The notes beneath the pieces are model-generated. The model ran no database searches. It saw nothing but the letters and a program-made list of their open reading frames with translations, and had not been told where the DNA came from. A stretch of DNA of 64,000 nucleotides, taken from positions 108,834 through 172,833 of IMG/VR virus record IMGVR_UViG_3300027754_005796. One strand, 5' to 3'. Position numbers and translations under genes: made by a program. Origin of the DNA: a virus. Positions within the stretch are counted from its first letter, which is position 1. Every line of letters begins with the position of its first letter. This document shows positions 18,364 through 64,000 of the stretch, piece by piece.

Positions 18364-19605
18364 ATGCCTCGTAAGCGTCAAATTGTTTGTAATTATTGTG
18401 GCAATAATGCCACCTCTGGACCATTGGTGGAGAGCCCTATCAGTAAGGTCTACATTTGCGGAGCTTGCATTAAAGTGTGCGATGCATTCTTGACTCAAAA
18501 AAGCGAGTGTCCCGTGCCTCAATTACATCTGAATTCAGCCAAACAGATAGTGGAACACTTAGATCAACATATTATAGGACAGGACAGAGCCAAGCGTGCC
18601 TTAGCGGTTGCTGTAATCAACCATTATAAAAGACTTTTGGATTTCACTACCCAATTTGAAAAGAACAATCCATATAAAGATGTCAATTTAGAGAAGTCTA
18701 ATATTTTGCTTGTTGGCCCCACGGGTTCAGGCAAGACGCTTTTGGCCAGCACTTTGGCTAAAATTATGAATGTGCCGTTTGCTGTGGGTGATGCAACCAC
18801 GCTCACAGAAAGTGGTTATGTTGGTGAGGATGTTGAGAATTTAGTTCTGAAATTGATCCGTGCTGCCGATGGCGACATAGAGTTGGCACAGCATGGCATT
18901 ATTTTTCTTGACGAGGTAGACAAACTTGCTCGTAGTGGCGGGAATGTTTCCATCACAAGGGATGTAAGTGGTGAGGGTGTCCAACAATCGTTGTTGAAAA
19001 TGTTTGAGGGTACAATTTGCAATGTTCCTCCGCAGGGTGGCCGTAAGCATCCTGAGCAAAAGTACATCCCAGTCGATACCCGCAATATTTTGTTTATATG
19101 CGGGGGAGCTTTTAATGGTTTGGAGGACATCATCAAGCGTCGATTGGGCAAATCGATGATGGGATTTAATTCGCAGCCAAATGAAGAAACTGATTGGTTG
19201 TTGGGAAGTGTTTCTGAAGCCGATTTGGTTGAATTCGGAATGATCCCTGAGTTCATAGGTCGGTTGCCTGTGGTCACTCCTCTGAGAGGCTTAGATGAAG
19301 AAGCTCTAATGCAAATTCTGACTAAGCCAAAAAATGCCATAACCAAGCAATACAAAAAACTTTGTTATAGTGAAGGTGTGGATTTGAATTTCACCGAAGA
19401 TGCCCTGAAGGCAATTGCTAAAAAAGCTTTGGACAAGGGGACAGGTGCTCGTGGACTCAGATCTGTGTTGGAAGATTTTATGCTTGATGTAATGTTTCAA
19501 TTAGTGGATAATGAAGGAAAATCGACAACAATAACCAAAGAAGTTGTAGCTGGTGCTTCTGCGACTTTTGAAAAAAACACACTCATTTATTCTGGGGCTG
19601 TTTAA
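18364..19605 (+). CDS. clpX: ClpX, ATP-dependent protein unfoldase
   Basis: 413 residues, near the usual 420. The N-terminal zinc-binding domain has C9, C12, C32 and C35. Walker A is GPTGSGKT (118-125), the substrate-gripping pore loop is GYVG (151-154), and Walker B is IIFLDEVDK (183-186). The RKH-type loop region and a sensor II GARGLRS follow. ClpX feeds proteins to ClpP; no ClpP gene is visible here, so it may use the host protease or act alone. GGAG precedes the ATG. The stop overlaps the start of a broken phosphoesterase gene. Confidence 0.95.
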   Translation: MPRKRQIVCNYCGNNATSGPLVESPISKVYICGACIKVCDAFLTQKSECPVPQLHLNSAKQIVEHLDQHIIGQDRAKRALAVAVINHYKRLLDFTTQFEKNNPYKDVNLEKSNILLVGPTGSGKTLLASTLAKIMNVPFAVGDATTLTESGYVGEDVENLVLKLIRAADGDIELAQHGIIFLDEVDKLARSGGNVSITRDVSGEGVQQSLLKMFEGTICNVPPQGGRKHPEQKYIPVDTRNILFICGGAFNGLEDIIKRRLGKSMMGFNSQPNEETDWLLGSVSEADLVEFGMIPEFIGRLPVVTPLRGLDEEALMQILTKPKNAITKQYKKLCYSEGVDLNFTEDALKAIAKKALDKGTGARGLRSVLEDFMLDVMFQLVDNEGKSTTITKEVVAGASATFEKNTLIYSGAV

Positions 19606-19733
19606 TGAAGCCACATCTTAGATTGATTGGTGATGTTCATGGCGGGGCGTTCTCTTCCAAAATCAAAGTGCTGGTCTATGTCTTGGTCTTGGTCTATGTC
19701 TTGGTCTATGTTTTGGCCTTGGCCTTGGTCTAG
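19605..19733 (+). pseudogene. 5' fragment of a metallophosphoesterase gene cut by TGGTCT repeats
   Basis: Starts at an ATG overlapping the clpX stop. The first residues, MKPHLRLIGDVHGG, carry the GDxHG motif I of calcineurin-like phosphoesterases. After about 20 codons the frame runs into the hexamer array (VLVYVLVLVY) and stops. No later phosphoesterase motif (GDxxD, GNH) appears downstream, so only the beginning survives. Confidence 0.65.
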
Positions 19734-19824
19734 GTCTTGGTCTTGCTATTTTTCTAATTTTTTGGTTAAATCTTGGTCTGTGTCTTGGTCTTATTGGTCA
19801 AAAAATTGGAGCAACAATATATGA
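19639..19824 (+). CDS. Trp-Ser repeat ORF, copy 1 (uncertain)
   Basis: Reads MAGRSLPKSKCWSMSWSWS and continues as a WS dipeptide repeat ending YWSKNWSNNI. No ribosome binding site is evident. Its TGA overlaps the ATG of the next WS ORF. It may be real or an accident of the hexamer repeat. Confidence 0.25.
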   Translation: MAGRSLPKSKCWSMSWSWSMSWSMFWPWPWSRSWSCYFSNFLVKSWSVSWSYWSKNWSNNI

Positions 19825-19990
19825 TCCTTAAAACAAATTCACATAGTGATAACCATTGTTTTGGATTTGTTAATTCAAAATTAGCATGTCGCTCTTTTTT
19901 TTGGTCTATGTTTTGGTCTGAGTCTTGGTCTTTGTCTTGGCAAAATTGTGACTCTTGGTCTTGGTCTACGCCTTTGTCTTTTCATTGGAG
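19668..19990 (+). repeat. TGGTCT hexamer-rich locus 1
   Basis: Two blocks of imperfect TGGTCT units (about 19668-19800 and 19900-19990) with variants such as ATGTCT and TGGCCT, separated by a conserved leader that begins ATGATCCTTAAAACAAATTC. The same block and leader recur at 54196-54660. Confidence 0.85.
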
Positions 19991-20003
19991 TATAGAACAA
20001 TGA
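19821..20003 (+). CDS. Trp-Ser repeat ORF, copy 2
   Basis: 60 residues. The leader MILKTNSHSDNHCFGFVNSK is followed by WS-type repeats (FWSMFWSESWSLSW) and ends HWSIEQ. The leader matches MNIKTNSYSNNNCFGFNNPK of the ORF at 54428, so the non-repeat part is conserved as protein. Start and stop are linked by ATGA overlaps to neighbours on both sides; a 16-codon ORF (20000-20050, MILKTIFF) bridges to the next gene. Function unknown. Confidence 0.4.
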   Translation: MILKTNSHSDNHCFGFVNSKLACRSFFWSMFWSESWSLSWQNCDSWSWSTPLSFHWSIEQ

Positions 20004-20046
20004 TCCTTAAAACAATTTTCTTTAGCAGAGGGCGGTATTCAAGATT

Positions 20047-20643
20047 ATGAATTATTCGGCAGCAACTTGCTTCGATGAAAAGGATTGGAACAAATATGGA
20101 TTGAATTGGTTGCGTGCAGCCCGTTCAAATTCTATGACTGGTTTTGTGGTTGGTATAGACCTTCCAGAACAAGCCGTGGCAAAAATTGGAGAATTGAATT
20201 TCACCCATTTGCCCATCGTTCGCAAATATAATTTTAAATGCGATTTATTTTACACACTTCTTCAGGCATTGGATCGTGATTCTTTTTGCTTATGGACTGA
20301 AAATAATTTGCTGCCTAGGCATGATCTCGAGCCAAAGTTTGATGCTTGTTGTCAATTAAGCGAATATACAGCATATGCAATTACAAGTCCCGTAATAAAC
20401 TTGCATGATCGTGCTGCCATGATTAGTTCGCTTGAGGAACAAATCCAAAAAGTTCATGGAAGCATGTTATCAACTCGATATATATTAGGAAGCTATAATT
20501 TTTGGAATGGTTTTTTGGGTTGTCAAAGTTATTTGTATCAGAAGCAATATCTGGATTCAAATATGCCTTGTGACGATTTGATTCTGAATTTCTTTATGGC
20601 TTTTGCAAATTCCGTTTCTCTAGAAATTAAAAAATATGAGTAA
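20047..20643 (+). CDS. Unknown protein, possibly nucleotide-sugar-transferase-like
   Basis: 198 residues. The start ATG overlaps the stop of the short leader ORF. Soluble, with FVVGIDLPEQAVAKIGEL and a C-terminal LGSYNFWNGFLGCQSYLY. DDLILNFFMAF near the end is reminiscent of the acceptor-side acidic motif of GT-A enzymes, but no DxD is clear. I do not recognise the family. It overlaps the following membrane peptide by 8 bases. Confidence 0.7.
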   Translation: MNYSAATCFDEKDWNKYGLNWLRAARSNSMTGFVVGIDLPEQAVAKIGELNFTHLPIVRKYNFKCDLFYTLLQALDRDSFCLWTENNLLPRHDLEPKFDACCQLSEYTAYAITSPVINLHDRAAMISSLEEQIQKVHGSMLSTRYILGSYNFWNGFLGCQSYLYQKQYLDSNMPCDDLILNFFMAFANSVSLEIKKYE

Positions 20644-40329: not shown

Positions 40330-41091
40330 TTATCTATGTATCAGCCGTCTAAATGATGGTAATTTTTTATTTGTGAAAACTGATGGAACATCAACTATAG
40401 TTGATGGAGTTGATGGAGTTGATGGAGTTGATGGATTTAATGGAGTTAATGGAGTTGATGGATTCTTAATCATATTCTTACGCTTCAATATTCTCTTATC
40501 ATCTTCTTGTTTTTTTATAGAAGACAACCTTTCTTCTCTGGATTTTTTTGTATCTGATAATTTATCCATAATATTTTTTGAATTTTTTGGATATAGCAAT
40601 AGAATGCGATCAAGAAATGAATTATTCAATAAAATTTTATTATTATACCAAGTAAATTTATTGCTAGCGAATGATTTTACAAATTTGTCATAAATCCTAT
40701 CCATTTTATCGGTCATTCCTGCAAATCTTAAAAAGTCAACACTTTGCATCTCTAATAATTTTCTTATAATCAATATCATTTGCTTGTAGATGACAAGACT
40801 ATCTTCTCCTGATGAGTCGGTAGGCTGAAATCCTCTCGGACCTACAAAATCAACAATATAGCCATTTGCTTCGATGTTTTTTGGCGAACCCAAAGAATTC
40901 GCTGGCATTTCAAAAACATGAATTCTATCAAAATAGACATAATATTCTTGATTTTTATGTTCCCAAGAAGATTCATATCCATAACCATTGCTTTTTAATT
41001 CAATATTGTTTATATCTGATTTATTAGGGTCTATAAATTCAATAATTTTATTATCTTCTAAAAAAAACCACTCTTTGAAATTAATTTCCAT
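40330..41091 (-). CDS. Paralogue of the shared C-terminal domain, with targeting motif
   Basis: 253 residues. MEINFKEWFFLED is followed immediately by IIEFIDPNKSDINNIEL, YVYFDRI, IVDFVGPRGFQP, RIYDKFVKSFASNKFTWYNN and KILLNNSFLDRILLL, all matching the C-terminal half of the downstream 548-residue protein. The tail is a Ser-Thr-Pro repeat (STPSTPSTPST). This looks like a duplication that kept the N-terminal motif but not the helical domain. It diverges from the gene at 41138. Confidence 0.75.
   Translation of the reverse strand: MEINFKEWFFLEDNKIIEFIDPNKSDINNIELKSNGYGYESSWEHKNQEYYVYFDRIHVFEMPANSLGSPKNIEANGYIVDFVGPRGFQPTDSSGEDSLVIYKQMILIIRKLLEMQSVDFLRFAGMTDKMDRIYDKFVKSFASNKFTWYNNKILLNNSFLDRILLLYPKNSKNIMDKLSDTKKSREERLSSIKKQEDDKRILKRKNMIKNPSTPLTPLNPSTPSTPSTPSTIVDVPSVFTNKKLPSFRRLIHR
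40400..40462. repeat. 9-bp tandem repeat coding for STP
   Basis: Seven copies of GTTGATGGA (two with one or two changes), read on the minus strand as a Ser-Thr-Pro linker. Confidence 0.9.
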
Positions 41092-52314: not shown

Positions 52315-53391
52315 ATGAAAAGTTTTTTTGAGTTTTATCAACACATTAAAGAATTCACAGGAGTGCCCACCCCCGGAGCTCCTGCCGTCCCCGGAGCTCC
52401 TGCCGTCCCCGGAGCTCCTGCCGTCCCCGGAGCTCCTGCCGTCCCCGGAGCTCCTGCCGTCCCCGGAGCTCCTGCTGCCGGTGCTCCCGGCGCTGCTGCC
52501 ACCGCTCCCGGCGCACTACCTGCTAATCCAAAGGAACAACAGTTTGCCGTCGATAATTTTATCCAAGAGATTAAAACGATGATGGGTCAAACTGTGAATC
52601 TAGGAAACTTTGTTAAAAAGTTGAAACAATATATTGGCAAAGAAGACTTTGTCAAAGCTTTGGAGACAAGCGGTCCCGAAGACATATTGGGAGTTGAGAA
52701 AAACAAAGCTATAAGCGTGGCTAAATTAATTCCAACACAAAGTGAAATTTTTCTTGAGAAATCACTTGATAATGGTCTTTTAAACAAATTTGGAAATCTT
52801 GATAAGTTGCTTGCGGGTGACCCCAAAGCAATTTCCGGTGCTGTAATTGTTGCACAGGTTGGAGATAGATACCATATTATTGATGGGCACCATAGATGGT
52901 CACAGTATATCAGTTTCAACAAAGGTGGCCAAGCAAATTGCCATGTTATTTCTGGTTTGAAAACTGCTCTTGAGACTTTGAAAGCTACGCACTTGGCAAT
53001 AGCATTAGTTCTTAAAGATGTGCCTCTCGAAGAAGACAAGGGTACAAATATTTTGACTATGGAAGACAATGCCATCAAGAGTTATGCAGTACAAAAAATT
53101 GACGCTGGTGGTATTTTGCCTGTATTTCAACAAAGCGTGACTTCTCAGCCGATGAATTCCAGCGATGATGCAGGCAACTACATCGTAGGTAACACCCAAG
53201 CTATGAAAGACCAAGCTGGCCAAGCTGCCTCTAAAGAAGAAAGAAATGTGATGCCTCAAACCGGCAAGGCTTCAGGATTTGTAGACGATTTAAGTGCTGG
53301 AAAAGTGAATGTTAAGTTTGATCATCTTGTTTTGGCTGGAGTTCTTACTATTGAACAATATTACGCTATGCCAAGTAAAAAGAAGAAATGA
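52315..53391 (+). CDS. ParB/Srx-like protein with targeting motif, paralogue 2
   Basis: 358 residues; the ATG directly follows the stop of paralogue 1. MKSFFEFYQHIKEF is nearly identical to its neighbour's start. Here the PGAPAV repeat linker comes right after the motif (about 18-55), and the ParB-like domain follows (LIPTQSEIFLEKSL, YHIIDGHHRWSQY, DGHHRW 190-195). The tail (FDHLVLAGVLTIEQYYAM) aligns with the end of paralogue 1. Domain order thus differs between the two copies. Confidence 0.75.
   Translation: MKSFFEFYQHIKEFTGVPTPGAPAVPGAPAVPGAPAVPGAPAVPGAPAVPGAPAAGAPGAAATAPGALPANPKEQQFAVDNFIQEIKTMMGQTVNLGNFVKKLKQYIGKEDFVKALETSGPEDILGVEKNKAISVAKLIPTQSEIFLEKSLDNGLLNKFGNLDKLLAGDPKAISGAVIVAQVGDRYHIIDGHHRWSQYISFNKGGQANCHVISGLKTALETLKATHLAIALVLKDVPLEEDKGTNILTMEDNAIKSYAVQKIDAGGILPVFQQSVTSQPMNSSDDAGNYIVGNTQAMKDQAGQAASKEERNVMPQTGKASGFVDDLSAGKVNVKFDHLVLAGVLTIEQYYAMPSKKKK
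52372..52479 (+). repeat. 18-bp tandem repeat coding for PGAPAV
   Basis: Six units of CCCGGAGCTCCTGCCGTC, five identical and the last altered. Confidence 0.95.
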
Positions 53392-53900
53392 AAACATTCC
53401 AGCAATGGCTCGAAGCTATAGCTCATTTGGCTCATGCCAACTATGACGATGTCTACAGAATAAAAAGGTCTTCTGACGACAATATCAATGCGGTCATGGC
53501 CGTTTTAAAGCCATTTGTGGACCCGAGCAGTCATGAAATTTTGGGTCATGGTCTTAGAAGTCAAGATGATGTAGAGAGAGTTTTCAAGCTCGGTTTACAG
53601 GCTCCAAATCAAATATTTCATCGACTCGTTATGACTGTTTTCGAGTCTGGTGCGCCTTTGGAGCATCAACCTAGAGAAGCATTTGATGGATTGCTTCAAT
53701 GGCCTTTCGCACGCAGACAACACATAGTCTTGATTGCTGCTCCACAAGGGAATCCAGATTCGATTTGGAGACCGATTCGTGATGATGAAGAAAAGTCCTA
53801 TTTGGCAACAGCACTTGGCGGTGTGAAAGTTGCAATTGATCCCGAGCATATACTTGGGGTGTTTGATGCACAAAACATTAGGTTTACTCCAAATGCCTAA
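53388..53900 (+). CDS. Protein with targeting motif, possibly ADP-ribosyltransferase-like
   Basis: 170 residues. MKTFQQWLEAIAHL fits the shared motif. The rest includes HEILGHGLRSQDDVERVFKL, VLIAAPQGNPDSIWRPI and a C-terminal PEHILGVFDAQNIRFTPNA. A histidine-glycine near the start and the closing P-x-x-I-x-G-x-x-D strand faintly recall small ADP-ribosyltransferase toxins, but the match is weak. The start overlaps the previous stop by ATGA. A decayed copy of its 5' part follows. Confidence 0.65.
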   Translation: MKTFQQWLEAIAHLAHANYDDVYRIKRSSDDNINAVMAVLKPFVDPSSHEILGHGLRSQDDVERVFKLGLQAPNQIFHRLVMTVFESGAPLEHQPREAFDGLLQWPFARRQHIVLIAAPQGNPDSIWRPIRDDEEKSYLATALGGVKVAIDPEHILGVFDAQNIRFTPNA

Positions 53901-54085
53901 AATGAAAACACTCCAAATGGCTCGAAGCTATAGCTCATTTGGTTCATGCCAACTATGACGATGTCTACAGAATAAAAAGGTCCTTTGACGACAAGATCAA
54001 TTCCGTCATGACCGTTTTAAAACCCGAGCAGTCATGAAATTTTGGGTCATGGTCTTAGAAGTCAAGATGATGGCGACAGCTTACT
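53901..54085 (+). pseudogene. Decayed duplicate of the 5' part of the preceding gene
   Basis: From the ATG at 53903 about 170 bases match 53388-53570 (for example GGCTCGAAGCTATAGCTCAT and GACGATGTCTACAGAATAAA), with several small deletions and substitutions that break the frame. Only the N-terminal third is present. Confidence 0.9.
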
Positions 54086-54427
54086 AAAAGTAATATCCTG
54101 ATAGTTTTTTGGTGCTGGACATTTGTGATGCAGTATGCTGATGTAGTGCTGATTGATCTTCGCTTAGGCATTATTCAACTCATTGGATTATAGTTCAATG
54201 ATACTTAAAACGAATAGTATAGTTTAAAATATACATGCTTGGCCATGTCTTTTTATATTCATTTTGCTATTCATTTTGCTTAAATTTCTCTGATTTTTAA
54301 GTAAAAAAGCTATTCGTAAAGCTATTCGTAAAGCTATTCGTAAAGCTATTCGTAAAGGTATTCTTTAGAACGATTCTATGTCTAATTATATGTCTAGGTC
54401 TAGCTCAACTAATTGGAGCAATAATCA
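54086..54427 (+). repeat. Low-complexity region with decayed WS-module remnants and 12-bp repeats
   Basis: Holds no intact gene. ATGATACTTAAAACGAAT (54200) and the TTGGAGCAATAATCAATGAA junction at 54411-54430 are remnants of the WS modules. AAAGCTATTCGT occurs four times in tandem (54306-54353), and TATTCATTTTGC twice near 54256. Confidence 0.8.
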
Positions 54428-54649
54428 ATGAACATTAAAACAAATTCATATAGCAACAACAATTGTTTTGGATTTAATAATCCAAAATCTCTATGCTGGT
54501 CCATGTCTAGGTATATGTCTAGGTCTTGGTCTGAGCGTTGGTCTTGGTCTTGGTCTGAGCGTTGGTCTATGTCTTGGTCTTGGTCTTGGTCTGAGCCTAT
54601 GTCTTGGTCTTGGTCTTATTGGTCAAAACATTGGAGTACAGGACAATGA
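54428..54649 (+). CDS. Trp-Ser repeat ORF, locus 2
   Basis: 73 residues. MNIKTNSYSNNNCFGFNNPK, then SMSRYMSRSWSERWSWSWSE and further WS pairs, ending YWSKHWSTGQ. The leader matches the ORF at 19821. The TGA overlaps an ATG (ATGATCCTTAAAATG) just upstream of the kinase gene. Start by ATGA-type overlap with the previous remnant. If translated, the product is extraordinarily rich in Trp and Ser. Confidence 0.4.
   Translation: MNIKTNSYSNNNCFGFNNPKSLCWSMSRYMSRSWSERWSWSWSERWSMSWSWSWSEPMSWSWSYWSKHWSTGQ
54496..54634 (+). repeat. TGGTCT hexamer-rich locus 2
   Basis: Imperfect TGGTCT units with variants ATGTCT, AGGTCT and GAGCGT, ending TCTTGGTCTTATTGGTCAAA as at locus 1 (near 19785). Confidence 0.85.
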
Positions 54650-54684
54650 TCCTTAAAATGAATTCCACTAGAAGGAGACATCTT

Positions 54685-55221
54685 ATGATTCGACGCATTT
54701 GTTTGTTTGGTGCTCCCGGCGCAGGGAAAACAGTTTTAACACATGAATTATTTGTTCATTATAAAAAGCAAGGTAGAAATTGCGAGATTGTTAACGAGTT
54801 GGCACGGGAATGGGCCTATTTGGATCGTCCTATTCAGAGTATGGATCAAATTTATTTGTTTGGAACGCAATTAAACAGAGAAGACAGTTTACTGTCCAGA
54901 AATAAAGTTGACTTCGTCATCTCTGATTCTCCTGTGCTTCTGAACTCATATTATGGAGTCAAAAAAGACGGGGATTTATTTCACAGTTATTTTCAGATGT
55001 ATATGGCTTTCGAGAAGAAGTTCCCAAGTATAAATATTTTTTGTATGAATAATCCTAATTATCTTTTTCACACAGAAGGAAGATTCCATACTCGTGATGA
55101 CGCTGACAACATCAGTCGTGAGATGATTAATTATATGAAAATAAGCAGAGTAGAATATCATGTGCTTCCAAACGAGGGTCGTTTGGAAGCAGCGGTGAAA
55201 ATGTTGGAAGGGAAGATTTAG
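54685..55221 (+). CDS. P-loop kinase/ATPase, NadR-like
   Basis: 178 residues from ATG 54685, with AAGGAG before it; an upstream ATG at 54649 belongs to the WS-module leader. Walker A is GAPGAGKT (9-16). VDFVISDSPVLLNSYYG is a Walker B-type strand as in the AAA_28/NadR-like family, and the C-terminal half has a possible lid segment (FHTRDDADNISREM). Members of this group phosphorylate nucleosides or act as regulators. The substrate is unknown. Confidence 0.75.
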   Translation: MIRRICLFGAPGAGKTVLTHELFVHYKKQGRNCEIVNELAREWAYLDRPIQSMDQIYLFGTQLNREDSLLSRNKVDFVISDSPVLLNSYYGVKKDGDLFHSYFQMYMAFEKKFPSINIFCMNNPNYLFHTEGRFHTRDDADNISREMINYMKISRVEYHVLPNEGRLEAAVKMLEGKI

Positions 55222-62958: not shown

Positions 62959-64000
62959 ATGGTTAAACAACTGACTGTAAAAATTAGTGAACTTCCAAAT
63001 CTGCAAGAGATGCATGATGACACAATCATGGCAGTTGTTGATTCGGGAATTACACAACAAACATCGGTAGTTGATCTCAAGGATTATATTCTTAATGGCG
63101 CTCAAGGTGGTGGCAATCAAGGCAATCAAGGGAATCAAGGCAATCAAGGCAATCAAGGCAATCAAGGCAATCAAGGCAATCAAGGGAATCAAGGCAATCA
63201 AGGCAATCAAGGCAATCAAGGCAATCAAGGTAATCAAGGTAATCAAGGTTTTCAGGGTAGTCAAGGAGCACAAGGCGCTCAAGGTGATACAGGTTTAGGA
63301 GCCCAAGGTGATATAGGAGCACAAGGCGATGCTGGTTTCGGATCACAAGGTGACATAGGAGCACAAGGTGCTCAGGGTGATGCAGGTTTCGGAGCTCAAG
63401 GTGATATAGGTGCTCAGGGTGATATAGGAGCTCAAGGAGCGCAAGGTGATGCAGGTTTTGGAGCCCAAGGCGACATAGGAGCTCAAGGAGCGCAAGGTGA
63501 TGCAGGTTTTGGAGCCCAAGGTGATATAGGTGCTCAGGGTGATATAGGAGCTCAAGGAGCTCAAGGAGCTCAAGGTAATGCAGGTTTTGGAGCCCAAGGT
63601 GATATAGGAGCACAAGGCGATGCTGGTTTCGGATCACAAGGTGCTCAGGGTGATGCAGGTTTCGGAGCTCAAGGTGATATAGGAGCACAGGGCGATGCAG
63701 GTTTCGGAGCCCAAGGTGATATAGGAGCACAGGGCGATGCAGGTTTCGGAGCTCAAGGCGATATAGGCGCTCAAGGCGATATAGGAGCACAAGGCGATGC
63801 AGGTTTCGGAGCACAAGGTGATATAGGAGCACAGGGCGATGCTGGTTTCGGAGCCCAAGGTGACATAGGATCACAAGGTGCTCAGGGTGATGCAGGTTTC
63901 GGAGCTCAAGGTGATATAGGCGCTCAGGGTGATATAGGAGCTCAAGGCGACATAGGAGCTCAAGGAGCGCAAGGTGATGCAGGTTTTGGAGCCCAAGGCG
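62959..64000 (+). CDS. Collagen-like fibre protein, 3' end outside the window
   Basis: At least 347 residues, open to the window end. The N-terminus (VKQLTVKISELPNLQEMHDD, then TIMAVVDSGITQQTSVVDLK) resembles the short anchoring head of phage fibres. It is followed by 15 GNQ units, a GFQGSQGAQ bridge and a long GAQ/GDI/GDA collagen region with regular GF insertions. Gly-x-y repeats form triple helices, so this is likely a trimeric tail fibre or virion surface filament. A large minus-strand frame opposite is a shadow. Confidence 0.85.
   Translation, partial: MVKQLTVKISELPNLQEMHDDTIMAVVDSGITQQTSVVDLKDYILNGAQGGGNQGNQGNQGNQGNQGNQGNQGNQGNQGNQGNQGNQGNQGNQGNQGFQGSQGAQGAQGDTGLGAQGDIGAQGDAGFGSQGDIGAQGAQGDAGFGAQGDIGAQGDIGAQGAQGDAGFGAQGDIGAQGAQGDAGFGAQGDIGAQGDIGAQGAQGAQGNAGFGAQGDIGAQGDAGFGSQGAQGDAGFGAQGDIGAQGDAGFGAQGDIGAQGDAGFGAQGDIGAQGDIGAQGDAGFGAQGDIGAQGDAGFGAQGDIGSQGAQGDAGFGAQGDIGAQGDIGAQGDIGAQGAQGDAGFGAQG
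63112..63246 (+). repeat. Fifteen 9-bp units coding for GNQ
   Basis: GGCAATCAA repeated 15 times with only third-base changes (GGG, GGT), followed by a less regular collagen repeat to the window end. Confidence 0.95.

Follow-up and report, generated by a model that had tools for sequence, protein, structure and literature searches.

The Trp-Ser repeat arrays found in an uncultured virus are copies of a small phage gene, whose products we call XS proteins (a name coined here): a leader followed by [W/R/G]-Ser dipeptide repeats. XS proteins have ~65 residues and are mostly very basic (median net charge +10), with 13% Trp and about one sixth Arg; the residue preceding Ser (X) is W in 1521 cases, R in 1498 and G in 1313. 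We are all but certain that the Trp-Ser (WS) frame is coding, and the arrays described here very probably belong to this class. On balance we think it probable that they represent a two-gene early phage module, in which an LSm-fold protein is paired with a disordered, probably RNA-binding, Trp/Arg/Ser polypeptide of the XS cassette class.

Repeat cassettes at two loci of the window

The stretch analysed (the window) makes up the final 64 kb of an IMG/VR virus record of 172,833 bases (G000), itself an incomplete fragment. (NNG TCT)n arrays lie at two loci of the window and are read in a WSWS frame, with the conserved leader MILKTNSYSNNNCFGFNNPK in front. The array of locus 1 spans 19672-19791 and 19901-19973 and that of locus 2 spans 54505-54617; no third copy was found in the remainder of the record. 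Near-matches to TTGGTCTTGGTCT number 69 against 20.7 expected, and ATGATCCTTAAAAC occurs seven times with two or fewer mismatches (0.97 expected). The features of the two loci, with repeat units as read from the sequence, are:

18364-19605, plus strand: ClpX-like AAA+ gene upstream of locus 1 (Pfam AAA_2 and ClpB_D2-small; ~52% identity to phage clpX); its stop overlaps the next start (TAATG)
19605-19733, plus strand: remnant phosphoesterase ORF, with 14 genuine codons, MKPHLRLIGDVHGG (19605-19646), and then the array in a VLVY frame to TAG
19672-19824, plus strand: headless WS-repeat unit, WSMSWSWSMSWSMF...YWSKNWSNNI and stop
19808-19811, plus strand: GGAG, Shine-Dalgarno-like, 9 nt before ATG 19821, within the terminal Trp-Ser (TGG AGC)
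19821-20003, plus strand: complete WS-repeat cassette of locus 1, MILKTNSHSDNHCFGFVNSKLACRSFFWSMFWSESWSLSW...HWSIEQ and stop (start also given as MILKTNSHSDNHCFGF); the stop TGA overlaps ATG 20000
20000-20050, plus strand: shortened next leader, MILKTIFFSRGRYSRL and stop, with ATGA overlaps with the preceding cassette and the following gene
20047-20643, plus strand: 198-aa gene, its start overlapping the shortened leader by ATGA
54198-54227, plus strand: broken leader of locus 2, MILKTNSIV and stop, followed by a 12-mer repeat, AAAGCTATTCGT, at 54306-54363
54428-54649, plus strand: complete WS-repeat cassette of locus 2, MNIKTNSYSNNNCFGFNNPKSLCWSMSRYMSRSWSERWSWS...HWSTGQ and stop (start also given as MNIKTNSYSNNNCFGF); the stop overlaps ATG 54646
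54646-55221, plus strand: AAA_28 NTPase gene, with the start of a next leader, MILKMNSTRRRHL, in its frame

The preliminary description, made from these letters alone, had reported TGGTCT arrays that encode WSWS-type peptides in ORFs chained by ATGA overlaps, each array end being followed by an overlapping stop. Both loci have this arrangement, with HWSIEQ and its stop at ATG 20000 and HWSTGQ and its stop at ATG 54646. The array ends carry TTGGAG, and GGAG stands exactly 9 nt before the next ATG at every junction. The Ser codon of the window arrays is TCT except in the last Trp-Ser, where it switches to AGC or AGT and thereby writes the GGAG. Because the GGAG for the next ATG is written by this switched codon, the array tail looks dual-purpose, encoding WS and offering a putative ribosome binding site for the next copy.

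A leader conserved between the loci had also been claimed, and a shared leader is indeed present at both, but the first unit of locus 1 lacks one of its own and the extra leader of locus 2 (54198) is broken. The dN/dS of the leader between copies, suggested earlier as a check, is 0.51 with a bootstrap range (0.21-1.33) that spans 1, and the +2 frame gives 0.48; for the leaders of recent tandem copies elsewhere, Ka/Ks analysis gave pS 0.044 and pN 0.082. The leader DNA contains a near-perfect inverted repeat, TTTTGGATT..AATCCAAAA, across the GFNNPK codons (approximately 19847-19885 and 54454-54490 of the window), kept with G-U pairs or shortened stems in several copies; this hairpin is not common to the leaders of the XS class. 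Rfam and tRNA searches gave no match.

At locus 1 the Trp-Ser module was thought to lie inside a broken phosphoesterase gene, and comparison with a relative supports this. The syntenic L151/G418 neighbourhood comprises ClpX, an intact ~208-aa phosphoesterase (RIIGDVHGKIGEYLALAR...), a 198-aa protein that is 43% identical to its window counterpart and a gamma-glutamyl cyclotransferase-like gene, with no array. The intact phosphoesterase of this relative shows that the gene of the window is broken, and the cassette has replaced most of it; around the window array no phosphoesterase remains were found beyond the 14 codons. The start of the phosphoesterase does run into the array, as had been noted, but in a frame that reads VLVY, not WS, and that stops at 19733.

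The search of the full genome and related viral contigs, also proposed beforehand, found the XS class and one record, G001 (IMGVR_UViG_3300027754_005989), with ~11 tandem copies that form two clusters on opposite strands, one of six units and one of about five. Most G001 units read MILKxNxYSNNxCFGFNNPKSxCWS, then the array, then HWSxx[I/Q] and stop, and some are broken by a frameshift or stop. The window cassettes have the Ser at every second position, the short ATG leader, the stop just after the array and the single Ser codon of the XS class; M, L and E are commoner at their X positions (WSMSWSWS...) than in the class.

The window and G001 cassettes might be copies in decay, which spread locally and have ceased to be of use to the phage, while the class as such is functional. 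This alternative is live, because no LSm-fold gene (see below) was found in the window's own incomplete record, the locus 1 cassette is near neutral (net charge about -1, unlike the basic XS class) and some copies are broken: among the about 14 leader-bearing copies of the window and G001, a frameshift or stop interrupts three near their beginning, and a further one is broken at the tail. The destroyed phosphoesterase gene and the distance of 6 kb between the array and the LSm-fold homologue in G001 (E 9.5e-29) also fit decay. Against it, 10 of the 14 copies extend without a break as far as the tail, with the GGAG-9 nt-ATG spacing and the ATGA joins preserved, and the leader retains CFGF and KSxCWS. 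We regard decay as rather unlikely, and read the window cassettes as divergent, amplified and partly broken members of the class.

Several other repeats of the window were noted. Adjoining locus 2, positions 53901-54090 hold a decayed and incomplete second copy of the first part of the gene at 53388-53900. Further coding tandem repeats lie at 52371-52514 (18-mer CCCCGGAGCTCCTGCCGT, 5.8 copies) and 40399-40462 (9-mer AGTTGATGG, 7 copies), and the record ends in long collagen-like Gly-X-Y repeats at 63112-63965 (GAQGDIGAQGDAG...).

The LSm-fold partner gene

Clustering of the proteins that flank XS genes gave one dominant family, found at 68 loci and encoded by the nearest upstream same-strand gene in 66 of them. 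The family has a short form (about 88 aa) and a long form (about 112 aa), related by profile comparison (96.7%, E 4.6e-10), and the AlphaFold2 models of the two have pLDDT of 90.4 and 90.2, respectively. In a Foldseek search of the PDB with the short form, the best 50 matches all were, or contained, chains of Sm/LSm fold. With the long form this applied to 48 of the best 50, with modest E-values (2.3e-3) and with the non-LSm entries 7zs2 and 9bxa low in the list; the probability was 1.00 for either form. The Sm/LSm fold of the partner is thus a confident prediction from the models. The partner sequence has no match in Pfam, NCBIfam or PDB sequences, and in PHROG a single member matches an unnamed family weakly. 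The proteins have private motifs (WIADTGRF/IVYETG), and some long-form members keep RG at the Sm2 position (VIVGRG); since the RG is only partial and family models recognize no Sm1/Sm2, we file the partner as LSm-fold and not as a member of the LSm family. A second LSm-type paralogue occurs at L427:1971-2366; its divergent C-terminal part resembles DUF6948 by eye and has no Pfam match.

An HMM search found the LSm-fold gene in 134 of 201 XS loci among the matches listed, directly upstream of XS in 125 of the 134, and in 14 of 157 other loci (Fisher p 7.6e-31); all of these 14 hold an XS gene that the strict XS filter had missed. Whole-record searches located the gene in further XS records, away from the array examined. 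About a third of XS loci lack a local LSm-fold gene, so the partner is common and not defining. The association was also examined in reverse, free of array ascertainment, by a scan with the long form that gave 411 relatives, of which 79 were kept. XS lay within 500 nt downstream of the LSm-fold gene in 74 of these 79 loci; of the other five, two have short XS genes, one reaches the contig end after MNAACLRTGFD and two are identical loci without XS. These last (L572 and L581, after 3342/3345) are two copies of the sole LSm-fold locus without XS, and a different gene stands directly next.

The two genes are joined by a -4 ATGA overlap in 67 of 119 cases and lie within 25 nt in 107 of the 119. 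No locus contains a fusion of the two, that is, an LSm ORF with an in-frame XS array. It is nearly beyond doubt, in our judgement, that the LSm-XS pair is a functional module.

Other neighbours at XS loci are early DNA-metabolism genes (ssDNA annealing proteins, methyltransferases, replication initiation and polymerase). Two of 50,697 deposited phage records matched, MW202573 and MW202825, which come from uncultured phages of Manatee Spring; the XS gene of MW202573 (MNAAIIRAGLDASWSWSW...) is annotated as hypothetical. Annotation passes XS genes over or labels them hypothetical, since they resemble junk repeats. One stray copy, which looked like a pointer to the host, is present in a Patescibacteria MAG contig (L193); 380 Patescibacteria genomes, 399 and 396 genomes of two other phyla, and plasmids contained no further copy. 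Matches to plain (CGGTCT)n or (TGGTCT)n in bacterial genomes were rejected as low-complexity parts of other genes.

Possible role and known systems

In most phages XS is the second gene, behind a small LSm-fold gene and mostly joined to it by ATGA, in the early DNA-metabolism region. In the mechanism we propose, the LSm-fold protein would form an RNA-binding ring and the XS polypeptide would act as its disordered partner in trans, with Trp and Arg as putative stickers that bind RNA and one another, and with Gly and Ser as spacers; the result would be a phage ribonucleoprotein (RNP) or condensate early in infection. The composition of XS (stickers, spacers and a charge of +10) is what might be expected of a nucleic-acid-binding, self-associating chain. 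A role of LSm-XS as an RNA-binding RNP is a serious possibility that we hold somewhat short of probable. Slightly more tentative is the wider picture of a virus-only RNP in hundreds of uncultured phages, in which a phage LSm ring would work with a separate, hypervariable Trp/Arg/Gly-Ser sticker-spacer chain, its composition (W, R and G at about a third each) being tuned through changes of the first base in a hexamer array prone to slippage.

The pair could instead act on DNA: XS might condense or shield phage DNA, or serve as a decoy for host nuclease or defence, with the LSm-fold ring binding DNA rather than RNA. XS is basic and aromatic and its early region includes methyltransferases and ssDNA annealing proteins, which would suit such a role, but the Sm/LSm fold is known chiefly for RNA, and we consider action on DNA unlikely. 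A basic composition rich in Trp and Arg is also like that of membrane-active peptides, and two small coupled genes resemble a toxin-antitoxin layout, so XS might be a cationic membrane-active (lysis, toxin or antimicrobial-like) peptide whose translation or toxicity is controlled by the LSm-fold gene. This is less likely still, given that the neighbours belong to DNA metabolism and not to lysis, that alternating Ser with Gly at a third of X positions is unlike amphipathic membrane peptides, and that PADLOC gave no match.

Our preferred reading, an LSm-fold protein with a disordered RNA-binding partner, has partial parallels. Sm, LSm, SmAP and Hfq proteins share the predicted fold of the upstream partner (an alpha helix and five strands), but the phage partner has no family sequence match, has its private motifs and is accompanied by a separate XS gene. 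Eukaryotic SR proteins and RG-tailed Sm proteins have Ser/Arg-rich low-complexity chains that work with RNA and Sm cores; in XS, by contrast, Ser takes turns with W, R and G in about equal shares. XS is viral and has ~65 aa, and where SR proteins combine an RRM with RS repeats it consists of leader and repeat only, with no PHROG or NCBIfam match. The nearest described analogue is the Sm ribonucleoproteins of Borg extrachromosomal elements, in which a young, disordered tandem repeat (units of 4-17 aa) is fused to the Sm N terminus, whereas the two-residue XS repeat is a separate downstream ORF, in phages (PMC9879509). The best BFVD fold match of the partner is to the DUF6948 (PF22253) phage proteins (E 6.1e-5, probability 1.00), likewise small phage LSm-like barrels, but Pfam sequence search with the LSm-fold family here does not detect DUF6948, which has no known repeat partner. 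In a survey of low-complexity regions of prokaryotes and phages, aromatic residues and Arg were strongly under-represented; XS is likewise slippage-prone, but rich in just these residues (PMC6821194).

That nothing known matches had been stated in advance, and this was borne out in the libraries and open-access papers searched; the module proved to be one case of a large phage class with a partner gene. Neither the LSm-XS pair nor XS proteins were found in Pfam, PHROG, NCBIfam, PADLOC or the open-access papers searched. Open-access literature on the tryptophan-serine repeat, XS hexapeptides or DUF6948 with phage gave no match, and the papers that matched SWSWSW deal with the engineering of RNA export and with a screen of effectors from a human pathogen. 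If our reading is true, the early regions of phages gain a two-gene module that is common but has gone without a name; it would place an Sm/LSm-fold protein outside cells, with a disordered Trp-rich partner of a kind that composition surveys say prokaryotes avoid. The chain would be a minimal natural sticker-and-spacer polypeptide (a two-residue repeat with three sticker/spacer residues), and so a test bed for bacterial condensation.

Reading frame and codon variation of the XS class

A scan of viral contigs for TTGGTCT arrays gave at least 120 stretches. About half of those listed are unrelated low-complexity genes in other frames; the remainder are small genes with an ATG, a short leader, [W/R/G]S repeats and a stop. 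Retention of the reading frame in copies elsewhere had been set beforehand as the point on which a coding role should stand or fall, and the WS frame is open in 131 of 132 distinct mixed arrays among the matches listed. For the same 132 listed arrays, an ATG lies within 25 codons upstream in 85% for the WS frame and in 0-11% for other frames, and a stop follows within five codons in 74% versus 2-25%. These start, stop and junction statistics ruled out the other frames (Leu-Gly and Val-Leu; Arg-Pro and Asp-Gln on the minus strand).

When arrays with other Ser codons were scanned for, the count rose to at least 298 XS ORFs in at least 203 loci, with two or more XS ORFs in 47 of 203 loci among the matches listed. 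The leaders show two recurrent types, MNxAxLRxG[FYLW][DE]xS and M(I)RSxKQKYRS. Each array is faithful to one Ser codon, and different phages write Ser as TCG, TCA, TCT or AGC; the constraint is therefore on the protein and not on a DNA motif. In TCT-type hexamers variation is confined to the first base, which had made a DNA motif of GGTCT every 6 bases attractive; the scans with other Ser codons ruled this motif out. That the arrays are simple repeat DNA with no coding role, or a DNA-level GGTCT array for binding or recombination, is thus very improbable and for the XS class as a whole refuted: the arrays are of low complexity, variation is lowest at their silent third positions (T6 1.1%) and the +2 frame (Leu-Gly) stays open too, but the Ser codons give no common DNA motif across phages, and ATG, stop and ATGA join occur in the WS frame only.

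The array scans were built on NGG hexamers, which biases codon statistics, and these were repeated on an array-blind set found via the LSm-fold gene. There, 89% of X codons are NGG, with R 534, G 517 and W 439 of 1627, and the share of the main Ser codon within an array has a median of 1.0. Departures from the array consensus occur in 55% of units at the first base and in 3-8% at the other five hexamer positions, silent ones included, silent positions being no more variable than replacement positions. This hypervariability of the first NGG base is noted for arrays L523-L601 and L032-L509. We read this pattern as fast repeat turnover with selection for a W/R/G mix, the alternative being a mutational cause. 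Array length would change through slippage and unequal exchange, leaving one Ser codon per array, while the W/R/G variety at the first position would be upheld by selection or another process. In the window the cassette has a private leader and stands in tandem copies, the last Trp-Ser of one supplying a Shine-Dalgarno-like GGAG for the next, and it has replaced most of the phosphoesterase gene. Targets of diversity-generating retroelements have adenine-specific variation, a template repeat and a reverse transcriptase; XS varies at the first base of NGG to all four bases, and its A-rich leaders are stable. In XS arrays changes of length can be followed independently of amino-acid composition, which makes them a test bed for repeat-array evolution. 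At one locus, L566, the XS gene is degenerate and its codons are mixed (MCAAIVYSGFRQSVTRSKSNTRGG...); it may be an old array that is no longer homogenised.
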